64,000 bases of DNA from NCBI RefSeq assembly GCF_000012505.1, contig NC_007513.1:1488001-1552000 (forward strand), in the 5' to 3' direction. A model generated the notes under the pieces. That model did not search any database and was not told the origin of the DNA. It worked only from the letters and a program-made list of their open reading frames with translations. This stretch comes from Synechococcus sp. CC9902 (GTDB taxonomy: Bacteria > Cyanobacteriota > Cyanobacteriia > PCC-6307 > Cyanobiaceae). Of this stretch, positions 15,955-60,314 are shown one piece after another (position 1 is the first letter of the stretch; the number at the start of each line of letters is the position of its first letter). The translations under genes were made by a program, and so were the position numbers.

Positions 15955-16224
15955 ATGCTGGTGAACATGTACAGCTCGAACCTAACGATCAACACCCTCC
16001 TTGAGGAGGCGTTGAACGAACCGGACATCGGCACAACCAGCCGATTCCGATGGCACGCAACCGCCATCGGAATCGCTGCCCTTTGGACGGAAACCAATAC
16101 GCCGAGCACTCCCCCCTTCGAGGATGCTCTGAAGGAAGGATTAACAGTGGGCTTGGACCTCAGCCGCGAAGAACGCGAATTTCACCAAGTGGAACAGGGA
16201 CTTGTGCTTCTTTTTCATTCTTGA
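15955..16224 (+). CDS. hypothetical protein, 89 aa
   Basis: This reading frame is divergent from the glycosyltransferase gene. The product is acidic, soluble, without signal peptide or membrane span, with a likely helical region around residues 12-25. Codon use looks like the neighbours rather than like a chance frame. A second start at 15970 is possible. I recognise no family. Confidence 0.45.
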   Translation: MLVNMYSSNLTINTLLEEALNEPDIGTTSRFRWHATAIGIAALWTETNTPSTPPFEDALKEGLTVGLDLSREEREFHQVEQGLVLLFHS

Positions 16225-16306
16225 TCAAGTCCGTACAAGCCAATGGTTCATCAATGGCCATTCTTCAATCGAACCAGCAATCCCATCGGGGACATATCCC
16301 GCCACC

Positions 16307-16483
16307 TCAGCCTTCAGGATCCCAGCATTCACTCCATTCCACTAAAAGTTGTTCAAGAGTCAAAGAGTTATAAAATCCTCTCCATTTCTTTTCAGAATTA
16401 GCGTCGAAGGCCACAAGCGAGACGAGTAAGGCAATGGCTTGCTCTCGATCGAGGCGGTGATTGGATTCAGTAAAAAATTCCAT
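16307..16483 (-). CDS. small acidic protein, 58 aa
   Basis: An ATG at 16483 opens a 58-codon frame beginning MEFFTESNHRLDREQAIALL and ending SECWDPEG, rich in Trp near its end. The ATG directly follows the TGA of the 87-aa gene upstream, which argues for translational coupling and that both are real genes. The composition (amphipathic helix, several Trp) resembles small conserved proteins of marine picocyanobacteria, but I cannot name a family. Confidence 0.6.
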   Translation of the reverse strand: MEFFTESNHRLDREQAIALLVSLVAFDANSEKKWRGFYNSLTLEQLLVEWSECWDPEG

Positions 16484-16747
16484 TCATTGCTTTCCGGCAG
16501 AAAGATTCACTTTTGCCACTTTTAAAGCCTCTTCGCAGGCCTTTCGATCATCTCCATCAATATCCCCCTGACTACCGTTCAGACGAGCCTCAAGAAAAGC
16601 AATTTCATCCATCCAATACTCCTTACCCTTGGGCGAATCAGCAGTCATTTCATTAAAAAGGTCGACACAATCATTGTGACTAGTACAGTCTAGATTTACA
16701 ATAGACGCGTAGACAAACAGAGATAAATCTCTGACGAGCGTCAGCAA
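16484..16747 (-). CDS. hypothetical protein with four cysteines, 87 aa
   Basis: The product has a hydrophobic start (about residues 3-18) that may be a signal peptide, then a small acidic region with C21, C27 and C70. The N-terminal start is a TTG and is uncertain. It is immediately followed by the 58-aa gene with no gap, and is divergent from the 76-aa gene at 16773 with only 25 bases between starts. A small exported protein is a reasonable guess, no more. Confidence 0.5.
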   Translation of the reverse strand: MLTLVRDLSLFVYASIVNLDCTSHNDCVDLFNEMTADSPKGKEYWMDEIAFLEARLNGSQGDIDGDDRKACEEALKVAKVNLSAGKQ

Positions 16748-16772
16748 TGATCAACACAGAAGAACTGCAAAA

Positions 16773-17003
16773 ATGTTAAAAATTTTCATTGGTATGGTCC
16801 TTGGATATCTACTCTTCACATCCCCCCAAGCAAGACGCATTACCGGAGACCTACTTCGTAGTGCAGCCGAAACGATCTCGCCAGAGGAGGAACGCCATCA
16901 GCCACCAGCCTCAATCGATCAGACAACCAAACCAGCCCTGAAAGAGTTCGACGCAAAAACAAACAACGCACCACTCAGAATTGAACATCCTGATATTCAA
17001 TGA
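16773..17003 (+). CDS. small single-span membrane protein, 76 aa
   Basis: The protein begins with one membrane-inserting segment (residues 3-19, LKIFIGMVLGYLLFTSP), then an amphipathic stretch and a hydrophilic proline-rich tail. This layout resembles small YtxH-like or thylakoid/envelope-associated proteins of cyanobacteria. Its stop codon overlaps the start of a 30-aa membrane peptide (ATGA), so the two probably form a translation-coupled unit. Confidence 0.6.
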   Translation: MLKIFIGMVLGYLLFTSPQARRITGDLLRSAAETISPEEERHQPPASIDQTTKPALKEFDAKTNNAPLRIEHPDIQ

Positions 17004-17092
17004 AAAAGCATTTACTCTTTGTTGCAACATTTTGGCTTGGAGGATTCACTACACTCATGTTGACTTTTTATCTGATCATCTCCTTAAGATAA
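17000..17092 (+). CDS. 30-aa membrane peptide
   Basis: An ATG at 17000 overlaps the TGA of the preceding gene by four bases (ATGA) and opens a 30-codon frame, MKKHLLFVATFWLGGFTT and on, ending with the TAA at 17090-17092. The peptide is one hydrophobic span of about 22 residues with basic ends. The ATGA junction, the KK start and the uniform hydrophobicity favour a real small protein over chance. Confidence 0.5.
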   Translation: MKKHLLFVATFWLGGFTTLMLTFYLIISLR

Positions 17093-17102
17093 GCAGATTC
17101 TT

Positions 17103-17495
17103 TCAATCCCTACGCTTCACAAACCCTTCCCATAGTGGGCTTGACAGCACATTGCCGAGAAGATCAAGAAGTTCTGATCCAGAATTTGTTAGGCGCTCAG
17201 CTTGAATGCCAAGAAGGTACTCATGTTGAACTCCCCGACCACGCTGACGAGAACAAACAATCATGACATCGTCATATTGAATCGGGAAATCACTTGTAAA
17301 TCTCACATCAAGAATCCCTTCTGCAATAAAAAGAAGGAAATCACAAACAACTTGATTGATATATTCCTCATCATCCCGCAAGTCGCCACAGCGAATCATT
17401 TGATCCCTCGTTTGCGGCGTATACGTGACAAACGAAAAGAACAGTCGAGACTGCGTTGGTTGCAGATAAATTCGATAAAATGGCTTATAAGACAT
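17103..17495 (-). CDS. hypothetical protein, 130 aa
   Basis: The product starts MSYKPFYRIYLQPTQSRLFF and looks like a compact alpha/beta domain with alternating hydrophobic residues, no membrane span and no known motif. I took the inner ATG at 17495 because what precedes it looks non-coding. A forward frame over the same bases (17202-17549) has poor composition and was rejected. The segment is AT-richer than the flanks, as is the whole stretch from 16.3 to 20.7 kb. Confidence 0.5.
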   Translation of the reverse strand: MSYKPFYRIYLQPTQSRLFFSFVTYTPQTRDQMIRCGDLRDDEEYINQVVCDFLLFIAEGILDVRFTSDFPIQYDDVMIVCSRQRGRGVQHEYLLGIQAERLTNSGSELLDLLGNVLSSPLWEGFVKRRD

Positions 17496-17577
17496 TACAC
17501 AATTCAAAATTTAAAAAGTGTTTTTCTTGCAATAGCAATAAGCGATTAAATCTCAAGAAATACTCCACAATAAGCTT

Positions 17578-18945
17578 CTATGAACTGGAGCGAGTCTTCA
17601 GATCAAGCCACTCTTTACCATAGGAATCTGTAAACCACGATGAATTGTATTTACGAAGTCCAAATGCACAATAGGCAGTACTGAGACCTTCACCCAGACG
17701 TTTTGAAAACATCTCACCCTCAACATCCTTGGTTGTGAACTCAGCAGAGACAGCATCCATCACCCTTTGCTCAAACTCAGCTTTACCGAGAAGGAAACGC
17801 TCCGACTCAACACAAACCTTGAGCTGGCGCAGCGCCTCATCAATCGCCAAGACACGCACGGGCTGGCCTCTCTCATAGAGGCGGTAGTTCGAGGAAACAG
17901 TCTTGGGTTTGTTTTTGCATTTATATTTTTTCTTTGCTTTATCGGAATCTTTTTTGAGTTTCTTGATTTCCTTATGAAACTCTTCAAGATCATCCAAACC
18001 AGGTTTGATTCGAAATGAAGGGTCAAGCAAATCCTGTTTTAATACATTCACAACAGAATCTTTTGCGGGATCACCCACCATCGCCTCAGCGATAAACAGA
18101 ATCAACTCTTCACGCCTGAACTCAAGATGAGGGGTGTATCGGGTTTTTTGCAAAGCACCCACACAGGAGTGATACGTACTGGTGGTGACCTTGGTATCAC
18201 CAATCGTTCGCTCGACAATCTCCTCAACATCACCGCGTTGTTCCAACGGCAATGTTTGAAGAAGCGATAATGCCCTTGGTTTACCAAGAATCCAACGAAC
18301 TAAGGCACGCTTCTTCGCCCCTTGAACAAATCGCTTGTCATAGCTCTTGTGTCCTGATGATTTCATCAGGGAGTTAATGGCAATCGGAATTTCTAAGGAG
18401 CAGTGAGTCAGCACTTCATGGGCAACGTTCCCAGGATCCAACGACGAGGCCTTCTTAAGACGCGCCAGCAAGTCACTGACGGGGTCTTGACTAAATGCAT
18501 CCCAACATGACTGGATACGCGAACTAACAAATGTTCGGTGATCTTTTCGGAGGGAGCACCAGGCCCTTAAAACGAAAACTCCATCGTCATATTCATATAC
18601 CTCCTCGGTACGAATCATCCGAGAGGATGATTTACCGGCCTTGCTCACATAATCGATCCGAAGAGTGTCTGTGGCAAGAAACTTATTGCAACAGATCGGG
18701 CTGTTCTTAACCGCCTCACTCTCAGTTGTTTTGCGCTGAGTCCCCGAGACCCTGGACAGATCAGCCGTGGATTCCTTGAATCGCTCCAGAAAGGGGGTGG
18801 CACTGCTGCTTGAGGTCCGTGGGCTTGGACGCCCTCGTTTTAAGACACCATTGGGGCCGTCTCGCAAGGCATTCCGAAGTTTTTCATAGGACGACTCCCC
18901 AATCACACGTTTGAGCAATTGACGCGCAGATGCCCTTAAACCCAT
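17578..18945 (-). CDS. hypothetical protein with WYL-like segment, 455 aa
   Basis: Residues about 94-150 (LRIDYVSKAGKSSSRMIRTE ... VFVLRAWCSLRKDHRTFVSS and RIQS) follow the pattern of WYL domains: a beta-strand reading 'I-Y-S-G-R-I-P-E', then 'Y-L-A-W-C-R-D-R-F-R-I'. WYL domains bind ligands or nucleotides and often regulate defence genes. No helix-turn-helix is evident before it. The C-terminal 250 residues are helical, including a Lys-rich coiled-coil-like part near 330-350 (EIKKLKKDSDKAKKKYK). The N-terminus is basic. It could be a regulator or a nucleic-acid-associated protein; the role is unknown. Confidence 0.65.
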   Translation of the reverse strand: MGLRASARQLLKRVIGESSYEKLRNALRDGPNGVLKRGRPSPRTSSSSATPFLERFKESTADLSRVSGTQRKTTESEAVKNSPICCNKFLATDTLRIDYVSKAGKSSSRMIRTEEVYEYDDGVFVLRAWCSLRKDHRTFVSSRIQSCWDAFSQDPVSDLLARLKKASSLDPGNVAHEVLTHCSLEIPIAINSLMKSSGHKSYDKRFVQGAKKRALVRWILGKPRALSLLQTLPLEQRGDVEEIVERTIGDTKVTTSTYHSCVGALQKTRYTPHLEFRREELILFIAEAMVGDPAKDSVVNVLKQDLLDPSFRIKPGLDDLEEFHKEIKKLKKDSDKAKKKYKCKNKPKTVSSNYRLYERGQPVRVLAIDEALRQLKVCVESERFLLGKAEFEQRVMDAVSAEFTTKDVEGEMFSKRLGEGLSTAYCAFGLRKYNSSWFTDSYGKEWLDLKTRSSS

Positions 18946-19170
18946 CTCAGATCAACAACTTTTCCATAGTTTAAACCTGTAAAAATGATTCGGCCTAACA
19001 GCGTGAAACCCATCGAACCGCCAGATGAGGGGCCGTCCCACAAAGAATTCATTCAATCAAGCAAAATGGTTTAAAGCTTGGTTTAAATTTCACTGAATCA
19101 TCAAGCATTCCCAAACAACAACATATGAGTAATAATCCACTAAAGAGCAACAACTAGAAACGAGCTTGCC

Positions 19171-19713
19171 ATGAATACAAATACCTCGCAGAACAGAAGG
19201 AATCGCATTGAAGCAAACTTTGAAAGATGGCTATGGCGCTTCAGGCTGATCAGTATTATTCCCGTTTTAATGAGCCTTTTAGGAAGCATAAGCTGTTTTA
19301 TTTTAGGAACACAGGAAGAATTATCGGCACTGCATAAACTCTTTAATGGGCACTTCGATTCTGATAAAAGCATCCTCCTTCTTGGCAAAGTCGTAGGAGG
19401 AATTGATTACTATGTGATTGGAATAGCATTGCTTATTTTCGGCTACGGTGTCTACGAATTAATTATCTCTGATATCGACCCTCGCTTACAAGACTTAACT
19501 GACGACAGAAGAAATATTCTTAGTATCAATTCGCTCGAAAGCCTCAAACAAAAACTGACCAATGTCATTATCGTTGCCTTAATTGTAACGGCATTTAAGT
19601 TAATGATTAGCTTTGAGGTCGATTCAATTGTTGAGGTTTTTCAGTACTGCGGATGCGTTCTAATGCTTTCATTTAGTGCTTGGCTCGTCGGCCAGAATAA
19701 CAACAACCATTGA
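19171..19713 (+). CDS. UPF0114 (YqhA) family membrane protein
   Basis: The 180-residue protein has about four membrane spans and the family signature GGIDYYVIGIALLIFGYGVY followed by ELIISDIDP at about residues 78-107. UPF0114 proteins are found across bacteria, algae and plants; their transport or other activity is not established. AT-richer than the core flanks. It stands alone, with 225 bases before it and 290 after it that show no gene I would defend. Confidence 0.8.
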   Translation: MNTNTSQNRRNRIEANFERWLWRFRLISIIPVLMSLLGSISCFILGTQEELSALHKLFNGHFDSDKSILLLGKVVGGIDYYVIGIALLIFGYGVYELIISDIDPRLQDLTDDRRNILSINSLESLKQKLTNVIIVALIVTAFKLMISFEVDSIVEVFQYCGCVLMLSFSAWLVGQNNNNH

Positions 19714-20003
19714 AGCCTTGCACATAGAAATTATCAATGAACGAAAACTGACTGGACAGGCGCTATGCAGCAACTACATTAAATCAAGCCATATCAGTAC
19801 AGCCTCTTTTTATTGAGCAACTCCTAATCAGGCGTATATCCCAAGAGAGCTCTATACGGCACTTAAAGCCGATAATTATTGGGTATTAAATCAGTACAAA
19901 GCTTCATGACTCGACACTTAAACAATTTCAAATAAATTTTTATTCTCGTTTTTGTCCAATGACGAGATTGCGTCCAAGATTAAAGAAATAGATTGCCGCA
20001 ACG

Positions 20004-20741
20004 TTGAAGACCCCGGAAATCCCTATAAATGAAGCAGAACGCCTGAAAGCACTCAGTGAATACAGGATTCTTGGAACGAAACCGGAACAAACCTACGACG
20101 ACATTACAAAAATAGCTTCTCTCACCTGCGACACACCAATCGCTCTGCTCAGCCTGGTCGATACCAATCGCCAATGGTTCAAATCAAAAGTGGGCGTTGA
20201 TGTCGAAGAAACAGTACGAGACTGGTCATTCTGTGCCCATGCGATTCACTCCCCTGAGCCATTAATTATTGAAGACGCACTACAGGATGAACGTTTCGTC
20301 GATAATCCGCTGGTAAAAGGAGACCCTCAGATCAGACTCTATGCAGGTTTTCCCTTACAGAATGATCAAAACCATCGCATTGGAACCCTTTGCGTCATTG
20401 ATCGTAAGCCCCATGGCCTCACAGATGTTCAGTGCGAAATCATGGAATCACTGGCAAGGCAAGCGGTTTCTTTTCTTGAGTTAAGGAAGAGATCAATCAA
20501 GCTCATTGAATCTTTTTGCTCTCTAACAGATGCAGGAGGAATTATTAGTACTTGCTCTTACTGCCGCAAGGCAAAGGATACGAGCGGACACTGGATGCAT
20601 CTCGATAAATACTTATCATCTCGCACAAACTTAAACTTCAGCCATGGCATCTGCGATACATGCATTGAAGAACATTTTCCCGATGTTCTTCAAACATGGA
20701 GAGCAGAAGAGAAAGCCAATACAAAAGAAACGGCAATCTAA
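20004..20741 (+). CDS. GAF-domain protein with C-terminal Cys motif
   Basis: Residues about 20-165 are a GAF sensor domain of the type seen before histidine kinases and cyclases (DTPIALLSLVDTNRQWFKSK, WSFCAHAIHSPEPLIIEDAL, YAGFPLQ, GTLCVID). There is no kinase or cyclase output. Instead residues about 180-232 hold STCSYCRKAKDTSGHW, then SHGICDTCIEEHF, a C-x2-C ... C-x2-C unit that often ends bacterial signalling proteins and may bind metal. The start is a TTG at 20004, the first usable codon after an in-frame stop. Ligand and partner are unknown. Confidence 0.8.
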   Translation: MKTPEIPINEAERLKALSEYRILGTKPEQTYDDITKIASLTCDTPIALLSLVDTNRQWFKSKVGVDVEETVRDWSFCAHAIHSPEPLIIEDALQDERFVDNPLVKGDPQIRLYAGFPLQNDQNHRIGTLCVIDRKPHGLTDVQCEIMESLARQAVSFLELRKRSIKLIESFCSLTDAGGIISTCSYCRKAKDTSGHWMHLDKYLSSRTNLNFSHGICDTCIEEHFPDVLQTWRAEEKANTKETAI

Positions 20742-20808
20742 TAGATGGTATTTTGTTGCCAAAATCGTATCTCTTTCAAGGCAATTTCTCAACAAGTTTT
20801 TTTTTAAA

Positions 20809-20895
20809 CGGAGAGGGAGGGATTCGAACCCTCGAGGGTGTTACCCCTACACGATTTCGAGTCGTGCGCGATCAACCGGGCTCTGCCACCTCTCC
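20809..20895 (-). tRNA. trnS: tRNA-Ser (anticodon CGA)
   Basis: Read on the reverse strand from 20895, the molecule begins GGAGAGGTGGCAGAGC, has anticodon loop CTCGAAA (CGA) on a five-pair stem, a long class II variable arm and a T arm with GGTTCGAATCC, and closes with CTCTCC plus discriminator G. Length 87 fits serine tRNA. It marks the right edge of the accessory stretch 15.9-20.8 kb. Confidence 0.97.
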
Positions 20896-20922
20896 TAAAC
20901 GTCAAAAAGACGCATTTCGATT

Positions 20923-23724: not shown

Positions 23725-24072
23725 ATGTCGGTCTTTTCAAGTGGTGGTGGGGTGTTTGGGCGGAAAGCATTGTTGTTTGCTCGTTGATCCCGCCGGAACA
23801 ACAAGGCTATTTTCCCAAATGATGTGCAGGGTGAATTGGGAACCACCTTCAAACAAAACCACGTCACAGGACGACAGACAACCCACAGCCCCCCTGAAAA
23901 CTTTTCAATTGTTTTAAAACGGAGCAAAAAAACAGACCAACAACAACATCAAAAGAATCATTGAGAGTGAACTAGAAATTATCAAGAGCCGGGACTGATA
24001 TAGTAGGAAGATATAAACATAAGTTGAATTGAGCTTTCTCAACAAGAAACTCGCATCAACAGCTAAAAAACC
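23725..24072 (+). other. intergenic, 348 bases, no gene seen
   Basis: This gap lies between the divergent glyQ and lipoprotein genes and should hold both promoters. Base composition shifts here from the core to the AT-rich accessory region. I see no frame with coding character, no tRNA and no convincing hairpin. Confidence 0.5.
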
Positions 24073-24618
24073 ATGAATCACATGGCAATATCAAGGGGAA
24101 CGATTCTTCTTTTAGCAATACTTACATTGACGTCTTGCGTCAGACGACATAGTTCGAGGGACGAGGCACAAAAGGCATCAATAGCGTGGATCAACCAAGG
24201 TGGCACAGTCACTGTATTAACGCTACCGAATGAAAATGAGATCAAAGCGCAATGGAGACGAGAGCGAATCGCGGAAAACAATAAGTGTGAGTTTGCGAAA
24301 CAGGAAATAGAAGAGCTCGAACGGTCTGTTCCACCAGATAATTTTGAAGAGAATGAAATTCAAGGTCAGTACAAAGACTTGATCGCGACAAGAGATGATA
24401 CTTGCCGTGACCGTAAAATCCTAGTCGAAAAAATAGACTTAGCGGACAAACAAGAAGAAAAAAACCGAGAATGCATAGACAACGAACAATCAATGCAATT
24501 CATTTGCACAGAAAGAAATATACCGACTGACATGATTTCAAAAGAAGACTGGGACAAATGGCCACGAAAACAAAGTTACTTTGCATATAAACAATACGGA
24601 ATAAACGATAAGGAATAG
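24073..24618 (+). CDS. putative lipoprotein, 181 aa
   Basis: The N-terminus has a short basic start, a hydrophobic core and the lipobox-like LTLTSC at about residues 17-22, so the mature protein would be lipidated at Cys22. The rest is highly charged and helical, with spaced cysteines (C73, C111, C133, C145) and a likely coiled coil. No family recognised. First gene of the AT-rich accessory block, same strand as the next two. Confidence 0.6.
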   Translation: MNHMAISRGTILLLAILTLTSCVRRHSSRDEAQKASIAWINQGGTVTVLTLPNENEIKAQWRRERIAENNKCEFAKQEIEELERSVPPDNFEENEIQGQYKDLIATRDDTCRDRKILVEKIDLADKQEEKNRECIDNEQSMQFICTERNIPTDMISKEDWDKWPRKQSYFAYKQYGINDKE

Positions 24619-24754
24619 TGGAATACATCCCAAAACCATGTCTCAACTCACTTCACACTTATACATCAATCATCACATTAAAATAGTATACTTAGACACA
24701 AATGTCTAGACGATGAGGCCATAATATTCCACAAGAACACAGCACAAGCACTCA

Positions 24755-25240
24755 ATGAAATGGCTAAGATCTAAAATAAACTCTCTTAAGAAATATCTAA
24801 CGGCCAGCGGCATAAACAGCAGAGAGGACAGCCTTAATTACAAAATTAATAATGGAACAATTCAATGCAACTGGACGATCAGGAAAAGCTCAAAAAGATT
24901 GATCGATGAAAATTTTAATTCGGCTTTATTTCTAAGAGTTAGAGATATATCAGGAGATGGAACCAACGCTTCTGTGACGCTCGAGACGACAACAAGCACA
25001 AATCATGCAGACATTCATCTTCCGACCACTCAAGGCAAGATCTTATTAGAATTGGGATATAAAGCCTACAAAGGTGATTTCATAACGCTAGAATATAAAA
25101 TATTCAATTTAGGCGAGAAGAAGATCAAAGCGATAAGGTATATCGATTGGTTTAATATTGAGCCGGATAATATTCATCAACAAATGTACGAAATGGCCAC
25201 TAGAGGTGTTCCAACTGGTGGCTCAGAACAGCGAACCTAA
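24755..25240 (+). CDS. DUF4912-like protein, 161 aa
   Basis: After a basic N-terminus, residues about 35-130 follow the DUF4912 pattern: a tryptophan strand (IQCNWTIRKSSK), LFLRVRDISGDGTNAS ('L-R-L-Y-D-v-t-g'), ADIHLPTTQGKILLELGYKA ('G-Y-x-A-E-L-G-Y') and a following strand. DUF4912 proteins are widespread in cyanobacteria and Firmicutes and have no fixed role known to me. This version is diverged, hence the moderate certainty. AT-rich, like its neighbours. Confidence 0.55.
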   Translation: MKWLRSKINSLKKYLTASGINSREDSLNYKINNGTIQCNWTIRKSSKRLIDENFNSALFLRVRDISGDGTNASVTLETTTSTNHADIHLPTTQGKILLELGYKAYKGDFITLEYKIFNLGEKKIKAIRYIDWFNIEPDNIHQQMYEMATRGVPTGGSEQRT

Positions 25241-25449
25241 AACTCGAGGCATCATTCAAATCGGTAATCTCATCAGACCCAACTCAATGGCCTAGCGACA
25301 GAATGATTACAGCAAAGCGCAACAGCAGCATTTCGCGAAACTCATTTATGAACACTGTGGGCATTATTGCTGATTGAAAATAGTGGTTAGGCAAAATTAG
25401 GATTATTTATAACAAGTCTTGGATAACCAAGCTAATTACGACTTCAGGA

Positions 25450-25815
25450 ATGCTCTTCAACCTACTAGGAAAACCATTAAAAATATGTGGATGCAGCCCA
25501 AGAACAGGATGGTATTTAGACGGTTATTGCAAAACAGACCAGTCCGACTTAGGCAATCATTCTATATGCAGTGTCGTAACAGATACCTTCCTTAAATATA
25601 CTAAATCACAAGGTAATAACCTAATTGATCCGAACCTTTTGATGGAATTCCCGGGCCTTAAGGCGGGGGACCATTGGTGCTTATGTGCTGAACGATGGGA
25701 ACAAGCCAGAATTGACGGAGTAGCACCACCCATCATTATTGAATCGACAAATCTATCTGCAACTCAAGTAATACCCTTAAATATTTTAAAATCATTTGCA
25801 TTTGAGATTATCTAA
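25450..25815 (+). CDS. DUF2237 family protein
   Basis: The 121-residue protein matches DUF2237 across its length: NLLGKPLKICGCSPRTGWYL, GNHSICSVVTDTFLKYTKSQ, FPGLKAGDHWCLCAERW, and APPIIIESTN near the end. The family is small, soluble and cysteine-rich (a W-C-L-C motif near residues 76-79), present in many cyanobacteria; no function is established. The stop overlaps the end of the Nif11 gene on the other strand by four bases. Confidence 0.85.
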   Translation: MLFNLLGKPLKICGCSPRTGWYLDGYCKTDQSDLGNHSICSVVTDTFLKYTKSQGNNLIDPNLLMEFPGLKAGDHWCLCAERWEQARIDGVAPPIIIESTNLSATQVIPLNILKSFAFEII

Positions 25816-26135
25816 TATTTTATTCCAGACCTGAAATCCCGCTCCTCTTCTGAAAGATTGCTAGAACTACACGTCGATTGAGCATAATGAATCAGATTTT
25901 TGTAACCATCGGGAACTAAAGCAGGACACAGCTGTCCAACCTCGATGGCCTGGGGGCAAAAATAAACACCGCTCCATCGATTGATAAAGCGCCCTTTAAT
26001 TTCGTCCGAGAACAAAAAACCATGCTGTCCAGCAAATTCAATTATTTGATTGGGATCAAGATGTGCAAGTTTTGAACGAAAATCCTCATCAGCTCGAGCT
26101 CTATCGATGAAAGCATGCAATGCAGACTTAGACAT
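25812..26135 (-). CDS. Nif11-domain protein, 107 aa
   Basis: Residues about 1-50 fit the Nif11 domain: ALHAFIDRARADEDFRSKLA, then a helix-turn-helix-like IIEFAGQHGFLFSDEIKG. In marine picocyanobacteria this domain serves as leader of natural-product precursors (prochlorosins, N11P), where a GG site ends the leader. Here I see no GG; the tail has three single cysteines and ends in a charged stretch, so it may be a free-standing Nif11 protein. It lies next to the CA4 regulators, and some published CA4 islands carry unknown genes at such a place; the link is inferred. Confidence 0.75.
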   Translation of the reverse strand: MSKSALHAFIDRARADEDFRSKLAHLDPNQIIEFAGQHGFLFSDEIKGRFINRWSGVYFCPQAIEVGQLCPALVPDGYKNLIHYAQSTCSSSNLSEEERDFRSGIKY

Positions 26136-26241
26136 CAGACAAGTATCGCTTCAAAATGAATACAACAGATTCTCCAAAAAATGTGACCGAATAGTACTTT
26201 TCTCGATTAATATAATGGGGATACAACGAATATGTTCTCCA

Positions 26242-26340
26242 TCAAAATCCAATATTGCTGCCACGCCACAGCGCAATAGCAGGAATAATAACTGCGACAA
26301 TGAAGAGAAGTAAACAAATCGCGAGAATAGGAAAAAACAT
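26242..26340 (-). CDS. 32-aa membrane peptide
   Basis: ATG at 26340 opens a 32-codon frame, MFFPILAICLLLFIVAVIIP and on, ending WRGSNIGF before TGA at 26242. It is one strongly hydrophobic span with a polar Trp-Arg-containing end, like small photosynthetic membrane subunits. It lies between the Nif11 gene and the AraC pair in the CA4 region. Too short to prove by eye. Confidence 0.45.
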   Translation of the reverse strand: MFFPILAICLLLFIVAVIIPAIALWRGSNIGF

Positions 26341-26450
26341 GAATCTTCTGGAAAGTTAAAATGTAAAGGCACGCAACAGCAACTATTCACTTCCGCAAGA
26401 ACAAACTAAAATAGTTTTACTTATTACTGATAACTCACCAATACACAAGA

Positions 26451-27479
26451 ATGAAGGCAAGGAAAGCGAAAGAATTTGTCTTCAACGATCTCCTCTCGAT
26501 GGAGAGCTATTGCATAAATCATTATTCAGATTATTATTCAAAATCAAATTTTTCATGCAATGTTACCCAACTAAGCAAAGGTGAGCTGGTTACTAGTTCG
26601 ATTTGTGCGCCAATCAACGATGCGCACCTTGAAATTTTCAAATCAAATCAAACTATTTTGTATGAAGAAGAAGCCAACCAAAACTCTGTAGCCTTCTGCT
26701 GGATAAATAGTAACGGCGAACAAGCGCAAACCAATACTATCATCAGTGGTCATAAGATGATGGATCTAAGTATTGCAGGATTTAATCGATTAAACAAAAC
26801 AGGAGGAAACGTATGGGATATCGTTGGCGCAAATACTCAGCTTTGCTGCATGAGTCTTAAGTGGGAAAAGGTGAAAGAAAAGATTAATCAAATGAATGCA
26901 TACAATGCATTCGCTAAGCTTGAGGAATGTATTGGAATTGATTCAAATAGTTCAGCAAGCATTCAACTAAAGAGCCTATTTGAACGTCATTTTACAAAAG
27001 GATTACGCGAGTCAGAAGCTTTTTATGATTTAGCAATTGCAACATTAGAAGAACCGTGTGATCTAGAAATTCTGACTGAAAGATCAGACAAAACAGAGCT
27101 CATAGAAGATCTTGTTAAGCTACTTTATGAAGATAGAGAAGGAATGCCACCCCTAACAATTAGTGAGATCACAAAATATTTGAACACAGAAAAAGAGTCC
27201 CTAAGCATTGCATGTAGAACGAATTTTGATATGCCCATTCTCGATTTAATAAAAAGCATCAGACTAGAGCAAGTCAAGAAGTCATACCTCAATCCACACG
27301 TACCAAAAGGGCTGAAAAATTTCACAAAGAAGCAAAATGCTTTGTACTATGGATTTAAGAACTGGACAACATTTCAGAAATTTTACCATCAATCATTTCA
27401 AGAAAGCCCCGATGAGACTATTAATAAATCAAGCAAGGCCTCTGTATTGGTAACAGATCTATTTACGAGGCGTAGTTAA
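26451..27479 (+). CDS. AraC-type regulator, first of tandem pair (FciA/FciB type)
   Basis: The 342-residue protein has a large N-terminal region without known sensor motif and a C-terminal AraC-like DNA-binding domain (residues about 235-330): first helix-turn-helix ISEITKYLNTEKESLSIACR, linker helix IRLEQVKKSYL, second helix-turn-helix region YYGFKNWTTFQKFYHQSF. The second helix-turn-helix departs from the usual consensus. Its N-terminal segment GFNRLNKTGGNVW matches GFNTLNTSPGNSW in the next gene, so the two are duplicated. The stop overlaps the next start (TAATG). In CA4 islands FciA and FciB control mpeZ; which name applies here I cannot tell. Confidence 0.82.
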   Translation: MKARKAKEFVFNDLLSMESYCINHYSDYYSKSNFSCNVTQLSKGELVTSSICAPINDAHLEIFKSNQTILYEEEANQNSVAFCWINSNGEQAQTNTIISGHKMMDLSIAGFNRLNKTGGNVWDIVGANTQLCCMSLKWEKVKEKINQMNAYNAFAKLEECIGIDSNSSASIQLKSLFERHFTKGLRESEAFYDLAIATLEEPCDLEILTERSDKTELIEDLVKLLYEDREGMPPLTISEITKYLNTEKESLSIACRTNFDMPILDLIKSIRLEQVKKSYLNPHVPKGLKNFTKKQNALYYGFKNWTTFQKFYHQSFQESPDETINKSSKASVLVTDLFTRRS

Positions 27480-28435
27480 TGAAATTAGAACTCTCTTATT
27501 CAGATCATCTCCAGCTCTCAGAATCTCTCAATGAGTTGGGACAGACAACCCGCATCACTCAACTTGAGCCGGGTGAGGGGAAATATACGATGTCGTTCAA
27601 ACAATCTACTGGAATCGCTTTAGCTGAAATACAGTCAACACAACCACTTTTATATGAGGGCTGGGGAACAACTTGGTCGGTTGACTTCAATTGGATTACA
27701 CCAACCTGCCATTTGAATGATCCTTTCGGCTATTGCGAGGGGTATGAAATGAAAGAAACTAGTCTTGGGGGATTCAATACTCTCAATACTTCACCAGGGA
27801 ACTCATGGGGTAAATATTCAAATAATTGCTCATCTACAGCATGCATGCTTGATAAAAATATTTTGATGAAAATGCTTAAAGAATGCAATGCAGCACAAGC
27901 AATCGATAATCTCTCAAAAGCAAGAGGTCTCGATGTAAGTAGTGAGTCTTTGTATCAACTTAAGAAATTAACAAGGAAGGACTTGGTGAGAGGAATAATG
28001 AATCCGACAAAATATTATGACCTAATCGTTGCCTGCCTAGAAGGTGGCGATAAAAGAGGATATAGGAAGGGATTGACAAAAAACTATCGGTTGCTTGGCG
28101 AAATTGTGCAGCTTTCACATGACAGCCGCCGAATGAGCTCTCCAATGACACTTTCAGATGTATGTCAGTATCTAGATACTGGTCAAGCGTCTCTATACAG
28201 AGTTTGCCAAGATTACTTCGGCATGGGAATCATTGAAATGATGACGCAAATAAGACTTGAAGAGGCTAGAAGAGCCTTGTTAATGTTCAAGCAAAATGAA
28301 AAGAATCATGCCCTAACCGTTCGTGATGTCGCTCTTGGCTACGGGTTTAAACACCAAGGACGGTTTTCAAGGAGATATTTCACTAGTTTTGGAGAACTTC
28401 CCAGTCAAACACTGGACAGAAGCCAAGAGCTTTGA
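27479..28435 (+). CDS. AraC-type regulator, second of tandem pair (FciA/FciB type)
   Basis: The 318-residue protein ends in a canonical AraC domain (residues about 220-310): LSDVCQYLDTGQASLYRVCQ, IRLEEARRALL, then VRDVALGYGFKHQGRFSRRY and the GELPSQTL end. The N-terminal region resembles the preceding regulator and probably senses or dimerises. It begins at the A of the preceding TAA (TAATG), so both are made from one message. Known FciA/FciB pairs act oppositely on CA4 in blue and green light; the same is inferred here. Confidence 0.85.
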   Translation: MKLELSYSDHLQLSESLNELGQTTRITQLEPGEGKYTMSFKQSTGIALAEIQSTQPLLYEGWGTTWSVDFNWITPTCHLNDPFGYCEGYEMKETSLGGFNTLNTSPGNSWGKYSNNCSSTACMLDKNILMKMLKECNAAQAIDNLSKARGLDVSSESLYQLKKLTRKDLVRGIMNPTKYYDLIVACLEGGDKRGYRKGLTKNYRLLGEIVQLSHDSRRMSSPMTLSDVCQYLDTGQASLYRVCQDYFGMGIIEMMTQIRLEEARRALLMFKQNEKNHALTVRDVALGYGFKHQGRFSRRYFTSFGELPSQTLDRSQEL

Positions 28436-28456
28436 TGCCAGCTTTGCTGCTTGGGA

Positions 28457-28573
28457 TTAGAGCACGTCTGAGAATGCATGCTTACCATTTTGCCACGAAC
28501 GATTGAGAGAAAAGCGATGCGGCCCACCATATTGATCGCCCAACAAGGTTAAGCTTCGTAAAGCAGTATCCAT
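28457..28573 (-). CDS. possible 38-aa ORF
   Basis: ATG at 28573 opens a 38-codon frame that includes GDQYGGPHRFSLNRSWQNGK and ends FSDVL. The composition looks protein-like, and the DNA here is less AT-rich than the flanks. It could be a small gene or the remnant of a larger one. No family recognised. Confidence 0.28.
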   Translation of the reverse strand: MDTALRSLTLLGDQYGGPHRFSLNRSWQNGKHAFSDVL

Positions 28574-28655
28574 TTCTTATCAAAGAAAGTAAAATAAGCG
28601 CATAATTCGCGAAAGCAACTGTTGACCAAGTGCATCATCCCTTTCTAAAGAAATA

Positions 28656-28826
28656 ATGAAAAGAGTAACTTTTGAACTTAGTGATGAGCTCCACAAAAAG
28701 CTAAAACTTCTTTGTTATACAGAATCTGTATCGATTGGCCATATTTTAAGGCAATGCGTCTCCGACTTTTGTGATAAACATGATGCACATCTGATCGAAC
28801 TAATCGACAAAAGGTCACACAAGTAG
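28656..28826 (+). CDS. ribbon-helix-helix-like protein, 56 aa
   Basis: The frame from ATG 28656 encodes MKRVTFELSDELHKKLKLLC, then ESVSIGHILRQCVSDFC. This is the arrangement of MetJ/CopG-type ribbon-helix-helix proteins: one beta-strand (KRVTFEL), a helix starting at SDELHKKL, a turn, and a second helix with S-x-x-x-I-L-R. Such proteins are dimeric DNA binders. It lies between the AraC pair and mpeZ on the same strand, and may be one of the uncharacterised 'unk' genes of published CA4-A islands. Confidence 0.6.
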   Translation: MKRVTFELSDELHKKLKLLCYTESVSIGHILRQCVSDFCDKHDAHLIELIDKRSHK

Positions 28827-28969
28827 GTCGCGATATTTAAACCATTTTTGCCGAGATTTAAATAACTTTAGACAATTTCAGCCAAAAATAATCATTGCTT
28901 GTTAATTGCATTTGCTATGCATGTAAATCTGTCAAGAGTCTCAGTTCATATTGAGTAGCCACCACTGCA

Positions 28970-29015
28970 CATCTATGATTCTTGCATAAATGCATATACG
29001 CAAGATGCATAGATG
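28970..29015. promoter_or_regulatory. 46-bp near-palindrome upstream of mpeZ
   Basis: Left arm 28970-28988 (CATCTATGATTCTTGCATA) and right arm 28997-29015 (TACGCAAGATGCATAGATG) are reverse complements at 16 of 19 positions, around an 8-base centre. It ends 150 bases before mpeZ. No T-run follows, so a plain terminator is unlikely; an operator for a dimeric regulator, or an RNA hairpin in a long leader, are the simpler readings. Confidence 0.6.
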
Positions 29016-29064
29016 ACCTATCAGGCCTACTTGATGCGCAAGAGAGCAAAAGAGCAAAACTACA

Positions 29065-29157
29065 ATGAAGGCTTACAATGACTGCTTAGAGAAAATATTA
29101 TATGTAGATTATCAAATGGAAAGATATCAATCAATTTATATTCGAATGATCCTATAA
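29065..29157 (+). CDS. possible 30-codon leader ORF before mpeZ
   Basis: ATG at 29065 opens a frame MKAYNDCLEKILYVDYQMER and on, ending TAA at 29155-29157, only 7 bases before the mpeZ ATG. The peptide is rich in Tyr and Ile. No strong ribosome site precedes it. If translated, it would deliver ribosomes to mpeZ, whose own upstream AAAG is weak. It may equally be chance in AT-rich sequence. Confidence 0.3.
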   Translation: MKAYNDCLEKILYVDYQMERYQSIYIRMIL

Positions 29158-29164
29158 ATTAAAG

Positions 29165-30394
29165 ATGGCTGAGCGATTTGATGTTCTTGTCCAGGGAATA
29201 AGTGAGCAAGATGCACTCTCCCTATTAATGGCTCAGACCTCAACTGTTCCAAGACCTGCAGATCGATATTTTGCAGCAACTCGACTTGGATTGAGCAAGA
29301 CCAACGAATCTCTAGACGCACTATTAACGGCAACAAATAACCTCAAAATTGATGAATTATATGATCGAATAACACGTAGAAAAGCTATTGAATCCTTGGG
29401 ACGAAGAAAGGATAAACGGGCAATTCCAGCCTTAACAAATGTTCTGACCTGTACAGATACAGAGGCTGTTATAAACGCAATTTATGCCCTTGTACGCATC
29501 GATTGGGATCCAAGTGAAGAGAACAAAGATCTACTCTTATCGCTTTTGAATGGAGAATGTACGTTGGTTCGAGCAGTGATTCAGGCCCATACAAGACTCA
29601 ACATCAAACATTTAAAAGCCGAAAAATTGATTGCTGAGCTTTGTGATCATGAACAAGCCTTGATTGCAGGTGCAGCACGAGCTTATCAAGCAAAACTTTA
29701 TGGAAAAACTGAACTTTTAAATCCACTTGAAACCCAGTTACTCGATACCACTGCAGGAAAACGACGTTCGGCAGTGATCGATTTAGGCGATGCTATAGAC
29801 CCGAATCGAATCAAGAGCTTGGTGGATGCACCGATCTCGATGTCGCTAAGAGCGAATAGTTGTTTTCAGATTATTGATGACCGAAATCAACTACAGCAGA
29901 AACATGTCATCTCACAACTTGAGGTTCTTTTAACTGATAATCCGAAACATCTAAAGATCAGACCCGAATGGCAATGCAAACCTACTCCTGAAGAGATCGA
30001 ACGATGCCTTAGCCATCGAGATGAAGCGATTCAATATGGAGCTGCACTAAGCCTGATGAATCTTAATTCAGAGGATTGCCTGAAAATTATTAACAGCATG
30101 GAAGAAAGACTCTGGTCAGACTATGTGACACACTATTACCTCACTTGCATTGTAGGACTAAGACAATTCTCTGAGAAAAGTTACTTAGTAAAATCTGCTC
30201 TTGCAGAGACCACTCCGCAATACACGAAGTCGAGGGTTGCAGCAGCCTGGGCTTGCTTGAAACTCGATCTTTATGATCAATTAGACCTTCTTTACCAGTT
30301 ATCAAGTTCCGCATACTGGAAGCCACTGCGATGGTCTTGCCAACAAGTGTTTGCCCGAATGATTGATAAGCAACAGTCTCAAATAGAACTCTAG
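29165..30394 (+). CDS. mpeZ: phycoerythrobilin lyase-isomerase MpeZ (CpeY/MpeY family)
   Basis: The 409-residue protein is built of helical HEAT-like repeats, with ITRRKAIESLGRRKDKRAIP at about residues 69-88 and EAVINAIYALVRIDWD following, as in bilin lyases of the CpeY/MpeY/MpeZ group. MpeZ attaches phycoerythrobilin to the alpha subunit of phycoerythrin II (Cys83 of MpeA) and isomerises it to phycourobilin, tuning light capture to blue. The choice of MpeZ over MpeY or MpeW rests on context: it follows the FciA/FciB-type genes and lies away from phycobilisome genes. Length fits. Confidence 0.82.
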   Translation: MAERFDVLVQGISEQDALSLLMAQTSTVPRPADRYFAATRLGLSKTNESLDALLTATNNLKIDELYDRITRRKAIESLGRRKDKRAIPALTNVLTCTDTEAVINAIYALVRIDWDPSEENKDLLLSLLNGECTLVRAVIQAHTRLNIKHLKAEKLIAELCDHEQALIAGAARAYQAKLYGKTELLNPLETQLLDTTAGKRRSAVIDLGDAIDPNRIKSLVDAPISMSLRANSCFQIIDDRNQLQQKHVISQLEVLLTDNPKHLKIRPEWQCKPTPEEIERCLSHRDEAIQYGAALSLMNLNSEDCLKIINSMEERLWSDYVTHYYLTCIVGLRQFSEKSYLVKSALAETTPQYTKSRVAAAWACLKLDLYDQLDLLYQLSSSAYWKPLRWSCQQVFARMIDKQQSQIEL

Positions 30395-30551
30395 ATTTTT
30401 AATAGTTAATTAGCGAACATTATTGTCTTGGGATGAATCTACGCAGACTCGACAAGACCTTTTGACGCATCTGTTCCGAACGAAATTGGCAACTGTCGTA
30501 TGCCGGACAGCTCCACAACCGTTGCCCCCCCCCAACGGGGCTCCGCAGAAC

Positions 30552-30902
30552 TCAAGCCGGCAGCTCTAAGCACCGATACAAATGATCAATGGCGTTGTGG
30601 CGATGACGCTGCATGGGGCTAAGGCCGATCATCCCCAACCAAAAACGTCCATTCCCCTGACACACCAATACGGGCTTTGCCGCCCCTTTGCCATGGGCCT
30701 GCAGCAACGACATACAGAGCTTTTCGGCCACCTCGGCCCCCCTGGGGCGCTGGCGCAACCGGCGTAACAAGGGGTCGACCTGGGAGAACGACACAAAACT
30801 GGCTCGCTCGGAGTCGGTCACCAGGATCAAGCCATCGAGCCACTGCACGTCTTGCAGCAAATCCTCAATGTCGGACAACAAATTAGGGAGAGGAAAAGCC
30901 AA
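30552..30902 (-). CDS. conserved hypothetical protein, 116 aa
   Basis: The protein has segments LSDIEDLLQDVQWLDGLILV and RFWLGMIGLSPMQRHRHN and looks like a soluble alpha/beta domain. Base composition returns to core values here. It converges on mpeZ with about 157 bases between, marking the right limit of the AT-rich block. No function known to me. Confidence 0.65.
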   Translation of the reverse strand: MAFPLPNLLSDIEDLLQDVQWLDGLILVTDSERASFVSFSQVDPLLRRLRQRPRGAEVAEKLCMSLLQAHGKGAAKPVLVCQGNGRFWLGMIGLSPMQRHRHNAIDHLYRCLELPA

Positions 30903-50601: not shown

Positions 50602-51552
50602 ATGCTGCGTCGTCTTTCTGCAGGGCTGCTTGCCACTGCTGCTTTTGTTGCACCACTGGCTGCTACTGCTCAAGAAGGCTCAGCAGAAGACCTTGGTGTG
50701 ATGAGCATCAGCCTCGCTGATATCGTCAAACCCACCATTGGTTTTCAAGGCGCACTACAAGGTGCAGGAACACCAAACCAAGCAGGCATCGGTGGTTTTC
50801 TCCCGCTCTCTGTTGGTGAGAACAGCGTGTGGTTCCTTGATGCCCTGGTCAACGCCAACTTCGCCGATCGCGACGGCGAAAGCAGCCTCATCAATACCGA
50901 GGTTGCTGGTGGAACTTTGTCCACTTCAACCCGTGTTGGTTATCGCTGGCTGAACAACGACCGCAGTTGGATGTTTGGCCTGAATGGTGGTTATGACAGC
51001 CGTACATTGAAATCAGGTGATGCCGATACCGGCGTCAACGTTAAAAACAAGAAAACCGTCGGGTTCCAGCAGATCGCACTGAATGCAGAAGCGGTTTCTA
51101 ATAGCTGGACCTTGAACGGCTATGGACTGATCCCTGTTGGTGATGTGGAGCAGAGACTCAACAGTGTCTTTGACTCTGGTGCGTTGAACACCTACGGCCT
51201 GGATGCCGGTTATTTCATCACTCCAGTTCTAAAAGCATCCATAGGTTATTACTACCAACACCGTGATCAAGAAGATGTCGATGGTTCTGGTATGCGAGGA
51301 CGCTTGGCCTATGAGATCAGCAATGGATTAACAGCTGGTGTGAATGTCTCCTATGACGAAGAATTTGACACCAGAGTTTCTGCAGACCTTAAGGTTCGCT
51401 TTGGTGGTGCAAATACAACAGCGCAACGCAAAGCTGTTCAACAACTACCTGTAATCAATGCCTTAACATCAACACCAATCGAACGGGATGTGAGGGTTCA
51501 CGATTCCTGGCTTCAAAAATGCGAGGAGTGGTGTCCGATTATTTTTATGTAG
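50602..51552 (+). CDS. outer-membrane beta-barrel protein, inverse-autotransporter-like
   Basis: The 316-residue protein has a signal peptide (LRRLSAGLLATAAFVAPLAA, cut after ATAQ) and then alternating strands: GIGGFLPLSVGENSVWFLDA, LSTSTRVGYRWLNNDRSWMF and GLNGGYDSR. The 'flawless-resolved strand, G-x-G-x-R-W-L-x-D, G-x-N-x-x-Y-D' pattern resembles the beta-barrel of intimin/invasin-type inverse autotransporters. There is no long passenger; only about 45 residues with two cysteines follow the barrel. So it may be a surface barrel with a short exposed end. It has no gene partner nearby. Confidence 0.65.
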   Translation: MLRRLSAGLLATAAFVAPLAATAQEGSAEDLGVMSISLADIVKPTIGFQGALQGAGTPNQAGIGGFLPLSVGENSVWFLDALVNANFADRDGESSLINTEVAGGTLSTSTRVGYRWLNNDRSWMFGLNGGYDSRTLKSGDADTGVNVKNKKTVGFQQIALNAEAVSNSWTLNGYGLIPVGDVEQRLNSVFDSGALNTYGLDAGYFITPVLKASIGYYYQHRDQEDVDGSGMRGRLAYEISNGLTAGVNVSYDEEFDTRVSADLKVRFGGANTTAQRKAVQQLPVINALTSTPIERDVRVHDSWLQKCEEWCPIIFM

Positions 51553-51690
51553 CCTAGGCTCTTAAAACTCTTTTAACCTCAGGCACTTTTATTTCTTTAA
51601 TCACTGGCTAATCACGCATAAATGCCATCCACTGCCTGGCACTTAATAAACATCATCCCGCCGCAAGGTGTGGTTTTTTAGTAGTTGATC

Positions 51691-51831
51691 ATGCCCCAAC
51701 GTGTTTCCGGCAGAGGTTCAAACTCTTGGCTCGATGTGCCTCAGCGGATCAGCGTTGACCCAACGAACCACACACACCCCAATCAAGTACGGCCACTTGA
51801 AAAATGGATAAGTGATCGCCTCAGTCTTTGA
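51691..51831 (+). CDS. possible 46-aa ORF
   Basis: ATG at 51691 opens a frame starting MPQRVSGRGSNSWLDVPQRI and ending WISDRLSL. It is followed by overlapping genes on the other strand (11 shared bases). The composition is compatible with a small protein but proves nothing. Confidence 0.3.
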   Translation: MPQRVSGRGSNSWLDVPQRISVDPTNHTHPNQVRPLEKWISDRLSL

Positions 51832-51973
51832 ACTTCTCTATTTCAGCTTTTAGCTCTGTGAGGTTTTGCTCCAGCTTTGAGTAGTTATCAGGGTCTTCAT
51901 CCCAAGTCTCGATCAGCTTTTGAGCCGTCTCGATAAAGCTCCTCAAGTCATCACAAGCCCGCAAGAGATTCAT
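51821..51973 (-). CDS. small acidic helical protein, 50 aa
   Basis: The frame from ATG 51973 reads MNLLRACDDLRSFIETAQKL, then IETWDEDPDN and a Lys/Glu-rich helix ending IEKFKD. Heptad-like spacing of Leu and Ile suggests a short coiled coil. Its start is two bases after the stop of the 47-aa gene, as in an operon. Confidence 0.5.
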   Translation of the reverse strand: MNLLRACDDLRSFIETAQKLIETWDEDPDNYSKLEQNLTELKAEIEKFKD

Positions 51974-51975
51974 AG

Positions 51976-52119
51976 TCAGCCTTCCTTGTCACCGAGCTTC
52001 AATAGCTTTTCAAGCTTGAGAAACTTCAAAAGTTTTACCCCCCAAATAGCAGCAGCAGGTTTCACCAACGTCTGCTCGATACGAAGCTGATCTTGTGGAG
52101 TGATTCTTGGTTCAGGCAT
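51976..52119 (-). CDS. small basic protein, 47 aa
   Basis: The frame from ATG 52119 begins MPEPRITPQDQLRIEQTLVK and ends in a leucine/lysine-rich amphipathic stretch (KLLKFLKLEKLLKLGDKEG). It is immediately upstream of the 50-aa gene on the same strand. Together they look like a tiny two-gene operon of phage or host-accessory origin; no family recognised. Confidence 0.45.
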   Translation of the reverse strand: MPEPRITPQDQLRIEQTLVKPAAAIWGVKLLKFLKLEKLLKLGDKEG

Positions 52120-52845: not shown

Positions 52846-52913
52846 GTGCAGTGGTGGCTAGCAAAACGTTGTGCGAGCTTGAGCTGAAAACCAATGCGCA
52901 GAAGAATGAACGA

Positions 52914-60301: not shown

Positions 60302-60314
60302 AACAACAGATTCA

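Follow-up and report, generated by a model that had tools for sequence, protein, structure and literature searches.

The closest described system is the CA4-A genomic island of marine Synechococcus (type IV chromatic acclimation), which in the parts of PMC3877281 covered here comprises fciA-fciB-fciC-mpeZ together with unk10 and unk14. Strain CC9902 is among the strains published there, as pigment type 3dA with the response 'Large variation but delayed in BL to GL'; blue-light induction of mpeZ and a reversible PUB:PEB change are what a CA4-A island would be expected to give. In the literature covered, an MpeZ-type lyase-isomerase ligates PEB and isomerises it at Cys-83 of alpha-PEII, a chemistry that is putative for the MpeZ studied here, and the part of PMC10904595 covered treats MpeZ and MpeY as two competing enzymes. 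In blue light, MpeZ would attach phycoerythrobilin to the phycoerythrin II alpha subunit and isomerise it to phycourobilin, in competition with an MpeY encoded in the phycobilisome region, and mpeZ expression would be set by FciA and FciB. A second type of island, CA4-B, combines fciA-fciB with mpeW and unk10. The present analysis shows the gene content, the orthology, Val instead of Gly at one residue, the place of insertion and a conserved element in the fciC-mpeZ promoter region; the light response and the chemistry are those of the literature.

The CA4-A island of CC9902

The window, a stretch of 64,000 nucleotides from the CC9902 genome, carries fciA, fciB, fciC and mpeZ within 26451-30394 (Table 1). 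Together with unk10 and unk14 this is the content of the CC9902 island in the parts of PMC3877281 covered, with no gene difference and with the same order, strands, low GC and non-phycobilisome location. Every testable feature of a CA4-A island was found: the AraC-type fciA and fciB are in tandem, the ribbon-helix-helix-like (RHH) gene fciC is located between fciB and the lyase gene, the lyase is MpeZ rather than MpeW or MpeY, unk10 lies on the reverse strand at the 5' end of the island, and the low-GC locus is sited outside the phycobilisome rod region. The marks of CA4-B, namely mpeW and a position inside the phycobilisome region, were looked for and were absent, and no evidence against CA4-A identity was found. 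We therefore put the probability that the feature is the CA4-A island of this clade IV strain at roughly 0.95, the roles of MpeZ, MpeY, FciA and FciB being those given in the literature; the island itself is already known.

Table 1. Positions of the island genes and candidate regulatory elements in the window
Feature	Position	Strand	Description
unkA	24073..24618	+	181 aa, in AT-rich insert; no Pfam or NCBIfam match
unkB	24755..25240	+	161 aa; weak DUF4912 match below cut-off
unk14	25450..25815	+	DUF2237 protein (PF09996, E 1e-44); tail-to-tail with unk10
unk10	25812..26135	-	Nif11-domain protein, 107 aa; found in CA4-A and CA4-B loci
fciA	26451..27479	+	AraC-type regulator, 342 aa; HTH_18 E 1.1e-5, below Pfam cut-off
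fciB	27479..28435	+	AraC-type regulator, 318 aa; HTH_18 E 1.4e-15
Candidate Fci box	28567..28582	+	TATCC-N2-TTCTTATCA; putative FciA/FciB operator, conserved
Candidate -10 element	28590..28595	+	TAAAAT of the putative fciC-mpeZ promoter, 17 bp after TATCCA
fciC	28656..28826	+	Small ribbon-helix-helix-like protein, 56 aa
mpeZ	29165..30394	+	E/F-type bilin lyase-isomerase, 409 aa; HEAT_2, HEAT_PBS; Tyr320-Val321; HRDE at 284

The original prediction, made from the letters of the DNA, had described two overlapping AraC genes, a small DNA-binding-like gene and a bilin lyase as a CA4-A island with FciA, FciB and MpeZ, and gene content, order, tree and residue test all agree with it. HTH_18 was detected in both AraC products, which are 30% identical over 291 columns, and the overlap is a single base, 27479, common to the TAA stop of fciA and the ATG of fciB. 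The small gene encodes a product with weak ParG (E 0.0056) and RHH_1 (E 0.019) matches, both under the Pfam cut-off; it is 87-98% identical to fciC in other fciAB-bearing CA4-A loci and 66% identical in the broken locus L069. An in-frame stop in fciB of genome G024 was considered as the cause of a weak response and was ruled out, the TAG being a stop near the C-terminus.

Two of the earlier statements held in part. The genes had been placed on one strand, which is correct for the four named ones but not for unk10, which falls in the same range; unk10, unk14 and the regulatory DNA had been left unnamed. The region had also been called AT-rich and about 4.6 kb long, and GC is indeed low (39.0% over 23900-30400 vs 54.5% for the remainder of the window), but the insert, upstream of glyQ, is longer at ~6.5 kb, and it also contains unk14 and the two ORFs unkA and unkB. 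The site is empty at 7/16 genus-mate loci. Among 39 stretches compared, which include duplicates, unkA was found only in the window and in L042 (75%); unkB is present in L042 (90%), with a fragment in L011, and unk14 occurs in 9 of the 19 fciAB-bearing CA4-A islands. Phycobilisome genes had been reported as absent here, and the phycoerythrin genes (two pairs of alpha and beta genes, accompanied by MpeY and CpeY) lie near 1.81-1.82 Mb of the same genome, about 0.3 Mb from the island near 1.51 Mb.

The lyase was 92% identical to the nearest CA4-A MpeZ and 47% to the strain's own MpeY, and a best match to MpeY, named beforehand as the refuting outcome, did not occur. In a tree that left out loci L004-L008, L010 and L011 (several of which repeat genomes of the G series) as well as L177 and L183-L188, it grouped with 17 other rows, all from CA4-A loci. 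This group of 18 was separate from own MpeY, CA4-B MpeW and CpeY, at a fork with values of 88/100, below the tool's 95/80 mark. The structures 7mc4 and 7mch, titled 'Bilin Lyase-Isomerase' in the PDB, are taken by us to be MpeQ, a full-length homologue of the window MpeZ (E 6.7e-120). Residues 336-337 of 7mc4 were read as MpeQ 318-319 because the chain has 18 residues ahead of Met1, and at this place MpeQ and the window protein have the same Tyr-Val pair, as expected for an MpeZ-type lyase-isomerase. Tyr-Val was present in 25/25 MpeZ rows inspected, whereas the strain's MpeY and CpeY and the five aligned MpeW rows have Tyr-Gly; we interpret this difference in the light of the mechanism that the part of PMC9705338 covered gives for MpeQ and MpeW. 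MpeQ differs in that the rows closest to it, judged by eye from sequence, belong to CA4-B loci, where they are the second lyase and occupy the position of MpeY, whereas the window MpeZ lies in the island; the name MpeQ for that second lyase follows the same part of PMC9705338.

The CA4-B islands resemble the window in FciA (50-57% identical), FciB (49-51%), Unk10 (47-49%) and a shared 16-bp core described below. They differ in their lyase, MpeW, with Gly at the decisive site, in having no fciC match and several copies of the core rather than one, and in adjoining other lyase genes of the phycobilisome region (MpeQ/MpeY-like and CpeY-like).

The candidate Fci box

The fciC-mpeZ pair is preceded by a 16-bp element, TATCC-N2-TTCTTATCA, here termed the Fci box, which we propose as a candidate FciA/FciB operator; binding is putative. 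The box is possibly a new part of the feature: the parts of PMC3877281 covered do not mention an element at 28567-28582, and no binding site for FciA or FciB was met in the parts of the CA4 literature covered. It was found with at most one mismatch in 19/19 fciAB-bearing CA4-A islands. Exact copies co-occur with the regulator genes, in 25 of 29 FciB-bearing genomes as against 3 of 371 others (Fisher p 2e-32, the genomes being related). Note that the 29 genomes are not a held-out set: two genus searches added no new FciB genome, so the CA4 genomes that yielded the box are also those in which it was counted. The 371 FciB-less genomes took no part in the derivation. A 29-bp block around the box was 82% identical vs 38% elsewhere in the same stretch, with 53% for the best other segment, as calculated from 14 of 20 rows picked by hand.

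The box probably overlaps the -35 position of an fciC-mpeZ promoter, because TATCCA is followed after 17 bp by the -10-like TAAAAT; TANNAT is present there in 19 of 20 aligned rows, L049 having TAAACT. The CC9902 genome has exactly one exact box. In CA4-B the box recurs before mpeW as a tandem pair, and its locations, ahead of mpeW/unk10 and next to fciA, are not equivalent to that in CA4-A. An operator of the AraC/XylS family would be expected to have direct-repeat half-sites about 21 bp apart, and the candidate regulators are of AraC type. The CA4-B boxes form a direct repeat with a 20-21-bp period, but CA4-A has a single copy, and binding by FciA/FciB is putative. In 6/6 fciC islands in which both fciA and fciB were lost or broken, the box had at least two mismatches or was not found, and this decay is seen where fciAB is lost while mpeZ remains open. 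It could be that the decay represents few independent events, because the fciAB-less islands may be few lineages.

Some observations speak against an operator. AraC-type proteins usually bind paired half-sites, unlike the one copy per CA4-A island. No second box above shuffle level was found in CA4-A between unk10 and fciA, nor between fciC and mpeZ (60 shuffles each). L059, which has a stop in fciA alone, lacks mpeZ and keeps fciC, retains an exact box, and of 32 one-mismatch matches across the 19 CA4 genomes scanned, 9 fall outside the islands. Separately, a dyad, GCTTTGTAAAGC, 5' of the box was tried as an FciC operator and dropped; it precedes the box, with at most one mismatch, in only 5/19 fciAB-bearing CA4-A islands (the window, L042, L053, L055 and L057), and its other copies lie elsewhere.

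One interpretation of these data, which we favour with a little more than even confidence, is that one 16-bp word is the operator of both FciA and FciB in both CA4 types. In CA4-A the single box over the -35 position of fciC-mpeZ, often the sole such site in the genome, would be acted on by FciA and FciB in opposite directions, partly by competition. With one box per island the paralogues would therefore compete for it, and the FciA:FciB ratio would set the blue/green switch. In CA4-B the word would be used again, in multiple copies that lie ahead of mpeW/unk10 and next to fciA, a rewiring by which FciA and FciB would give expression of the opposite enzyme in green light. Once fciAB is lost, the box would be free to decay, and this may be accompanied by loss of mpeY, which would leave the cell fixed as a specialist for blue light.

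Alternative readings and biological meaning

Of the alternatives, a conserved core promoter (-35/-10) or RNA leader element with no dedicated regulator survives best, unlikely as we consider it. The position of the box over -35, with the -10-like TAAAAT 17 bp on, speaks for a core promoter. Against it, CA4-B has the 16-bp core in a tandem pair and in locations that do not correspond to the CA4-A one, and the core decays with fciAB though mpeZ stays open. As to an RNA leader, Rfam at the gathering threshold returned no match apart from a tRNA. A sigma-70/terminator scan was at chance, giving 9 promoter-like and 4 terminator-like sites where 10.7 and 3.2 were expected.

Slightly less probable still is that the box serves FciC or a global regulator instead of FciA/FciB. 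Autoregulation of the operon is common among small RHH proteins, the box lies directly upstream of fciC, and L059 retains fciC and box alongside a broken fciA. However, CA4-B islands have the box and no fciC match, the box is degraded or missing in the six fciC islands that lack an intact fciA and fciB, and a global regulator would be expected to have more sites than the one exact copy in this genome.

That the locus is of CA4-B type or another MpeY-like lyase locus can be dismissed almost entirely: MpeZ, MpeY and MpeW are paralogues that share an HRDE motif, and also HEAT repeats (computed for MpeZ, from the literature for the others), but the locus has fciC, carries unk10 on its upstream side and is placed away from the phycobilisome region, and the tree together with Val instead of Gly at the decisive residue speaks against both MpeW and MpeY.

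If the operator reading is true, the Fci box would be the DNA end of the CA4 switch, and its direct targets would be predictable from sequence alone. It would also suggest how a small island can work after transfer to a new genome, since the island brings along a target that is nearly unique, and changes to a 16-bp word would make it possible to test why CA4-A and CA4-B follow opposite logic. With the island as a whole, marine cyanobacteria can adjust the pigments of their light-harvesting apparatus to blue or to green light.

The CA4-A island and its insertion site

The four genes of the original prediction, two AraC regulators, a small DNA-binding-like gene and a bilin lyase, were present at the coordinates claimed and all on the + strand, and domain searches gave AraC-type HTH signatures for the regulators, a weak RHH signal for the small gene and the HEAT signature of bilin lyases for the last. 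The proposal that everything lies on one strand held for these genes and failed at the start of the range, where unk10 runs in the opposite direction. The region is AT-rich as proposed (39.0% GC over 23900-30400 vs 54.5% in the remainder of the window), but the AT-rich block also takes in unk14 and two ORFs and so does not have the suggested extent of ~4.6 kb. Humily et al. (PMC3877281) list fciA, fciB, fciC, mpeZ, unk10 and unk14 for the CC9902 island and assign the strain to pigment type 3dA, its response being large but delayed; the CA4 island is therefore confirmed in the window, and the finding was correct and already known.

Island features (window coordinates) and MpeZ relatives elsewhere in the genome (contig coordinates)
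Feature	Position	Strand	Remark
unkA	24073-24618		upstream ORF inside AT-rich block
unkB	24755-25240		upstream ORF inside AT-rich block
unk14	25450-25815	+	DUF2237; upstream part of AT-rich block
unk10	25812-26135	-	Nif11 domain
fciA	26451-27479	+	
fciB	27479-28435	+	
box	28567-28582		candidate Fci box
fciC	28656-28826	+	
mpeZ	29165-30394	+	
mpeY	contig 1,813,400-1,814,593		47% relative of MpeZ
cpeY	contig 1,818,949-1,820,058		27% relative of MpeZ

In the window unk14 and unk10 stand tail-to-tail (ends at 25815 and 25812), whereas PMC3877281 terms them 'head-to-head'. Among fciAB-bearing CA4-A islands, unk14 was present in 9 of 19 (window, L042, L044, L045, L049, L053, L054, L055, L057), adjoining unk10 in all nine; in 2013 it was known from four strains, according to PMC3877281. 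Outside the window, unkA and unkB turned up in L042 alone among the stretches compared, with a fragment of one of them in L011; unkA has a lipoprotein-like beginning by eye. Dufresne et al. (PMC2441476) place CC9902 in clade IV (2.23 Mb, 54.2% GC, complete), with BL107 as the other clade IV strain in their table. Island proteins of the relative G089 were 90-97% identical to those of the window, and unkA 74%.

The empty site was surveyed in 16 same-genus loci with glyQ, the window and L073 (G089) being set aside. The distance from glyQ to an upstream homologue of 30552-30902 was 51 to 134 bases in seven (L075, L076, L077, L079, L080, L084, L086), where ubiE followed, and 0.9-1.2 kb in three (L074, L081, L083); the homologue was not found within the 1.5 kb compared in five (L078, L082, L085, L087, L088), and one (L089, G261) carried an mpeZ homologue at the site. 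The AT-rich block has thus been inserted between glyQ and the gene at 30552, a place that is variable in other genomes too. In L045 (G156) the CA4-A island lies ~2.3 kb 3' of glyQ (2387-3250), mpeZ end nearest, whereas in the window it lies 5'; CA4-A islands may insert preferentially near glyQ. A second AT-rich stretch of the window (16001-20900, 39-48% GC), beside tRNA-Ser (20809-20895) and encoding a GAF-domain-like protein by eye (20004-20741), is possibly a separate island. Two more low-GC stretches (42-47%) span 51001-53000 and 59001-62000.

Identity of the lyase

An MpeZ query matched three proteins in its own genome: MpeZ itself, MpeY and CpeY. In a tree of 47 rows, the window protein was nearest to MpeZ of G089 (92% identity), within an 18-row group whose other 17 members also come from CA4-A loci, while MpeY and CpeY of the same genome fell outside; the deeper forks had moderate support (bootstrap 87-90). 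The assignment as MpeZ thus stands. In PMC9705338 the isomerase pair of MpeQ is given as Tyr318-Val319, and the lyase MpeW is stated to have Gly319. Alignment to chain 7mc4 (entry title 'Bilin Lyase-Isomerase', taken as MpeQ) put Tyr320-Val321 of the window MpeZ at this place. Tyr-Val was found in 25/25 MpeZ rows inspected and in 9 MpeQ-like rows from CA4-B loci, and Tyr-Gly in the genome's own MpeY and CpeY and five aligned MpeW rows. Two phycoerythrin alpha/beta pairs lie in the region of MpeY, and together with the residue split this agrees with the two-enzyme model of PMC10904595.

A conserved box before fciC-mpeZ

Among 400 genomes sampled from the family, 29 had an FciB match (E up to 1e-20), comprising, by locus content, 19 CA4-A islands with fciC, nine CA4-B islands and one broken remnant (L069, G075). 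The fciB-fciC intergenic DNA of 20 CA4-A sequences (the 19 genomes and L009, a contig recorded for a different organism) was poorly conserved bar one block, approximately TATCC[A/G]NTTCTTAYCAAANNNAGTANAAT. Mean pairwise identity was 82% over this 29-bp block vs 38% outside it, and no other window of 29 columns rose above 53% (computed on 14 of the 20 rows). The block closes with TANNAT, 17 bp after its first six bases, in 19/20 rows (TAAACT in L049), which resembles a -10 element and would place the box across the -35 position. The 16-bp core was within one mismatch in all 19 CA4-A genomes (14 exact, five with one).

Two of the 19 islands lack mpeZ (L054, L059), and L059 also carries a stop in fciA, a defect published for WH8016 as well. 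L054 (G147:C1:2119000-2135000) has open fciA, fciB, fciC, unk10 and unk14 and an exact box with no mpeZ match; its next sizeable + strand ORF past fciC is not lyase-like by eye, and the mpeY-like gene of that genome is 52% identical to MpeY of CC9902.

In the nine CA4-B loci the core precedes mpeW on the same strand (six exact, two with one mismatch, one with two), and alignment placed a second copy beside it in all nine, at a distance of 20 bp in L068 and 21 bp in the other eight. Two weaker copies nearer mpeW (by eye) and a further opposite-strand copy 5' of fciA (≤ 2 mismatches) were each seen in 8/9. Few regulators bind direct repeats, and most of those few belong to the AraC family (PMC9723621).

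Exact matches to a 16-base pattern with a Y occurred in 28 of the same 400 genomes: 25/29 with FciB and 3/371 without (G042, G093, G190). The remaining FciB genomes were G101 (one mismatch), G225 and G070 (CA4-B variant boxes) and G075 (broken fciAB). A reversed control pattern matched in 9/400, one with FciB (counted from the scan table). Allowing one mismatch, a scan covering 19 of the 29 FciB genomes gave 32 matches, 23 in islands and nine elsewhere (six genomes), one of the latter, in G222, between two ORFs that look regulator-like by eye. A slightly longer pattern gave one exact and five two-mismatch matches in the CC9902 genome.

Islands without FciB and the proposed switch

At E up to 1e-125, 25/400 genomes had an MpeZ match, that of G070 (53%) belonging to the MpeQ-like row from a CA4-B locus; seven of the other 24 had no FciB match (G261, G277, G295, G301, G307, G317, G327). 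Five of the seven keep unk10-fciC-mpeZ, and at the aligned place the box had two mismatches in L184, three in L183 and more than three in L186, L187 and L188. Neither an fciC match nor a box was found in L185, no box preceded the lone mpeZ of L177, and none within two mismatches was found in L069 (broken fciA and fciB, fciC fragment). L059 is a counter-case: fciA alone has a stop there, and the box is still exact. A search with the CC9902 MpeY (E up to 1e-30) found only the MpeZ locus in six of the seven, and in G317 three further mpeY pieces, two with TGA; completeness of only 70-80% weakens FciB and mpeY absence in G307, G317 and G327. According to PMC3877281, BIOS-E4-1, without fciAB, is fixed in its blue-light state, and mpeZ is the same in both colours. 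G277, G301, G307, G317 and G327 (L183, L185-L188) resemble it in having mpeZ without FciB or an intact mpeY match, and the FciB-less mpeZ genomes other than G295 extend this known pattern. G261 looks, from its gene content, like a frozen blue-light type: FciB and mpeY gave no match genome-wide, and fciA, fciC and unk10 none in 16 kb around mpeZ. In this two-contig relative mpeZ (6576-7805 of L177, G261:C1:697000-713000) occupies the same glyQ-ubiE site as in the window.

In the literature, CA4 is controlled by FciA and FciB, and MpeZ is the enzyme that produces PUB. The two regulators, paralogues with 30% identity, would recognise one and the same box. The single box of CA4-A suggests competition: over the -35 position, activator and repressor would contend for it, and their ratio would set the switch. 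Mutants in fciA and fciB reportedly have opposite fixed phenotypes, and the two proteins are said to co-regulate only three genes, all within the island, which agrees with a nearly unique operator. The blue-locked state of BIOS-E4-1 is a difficulty for this activator/repressor model: its mpeZ promoter must either be active at a basal level or be altered. The box was counted in the genomes it came from and its losses may be few independent events, so the probability that it is an operator shared by FciA and FciB is put at about 0.6. As a predicted and testable element, the box is a good candidate for the operator of the CA4 switch.
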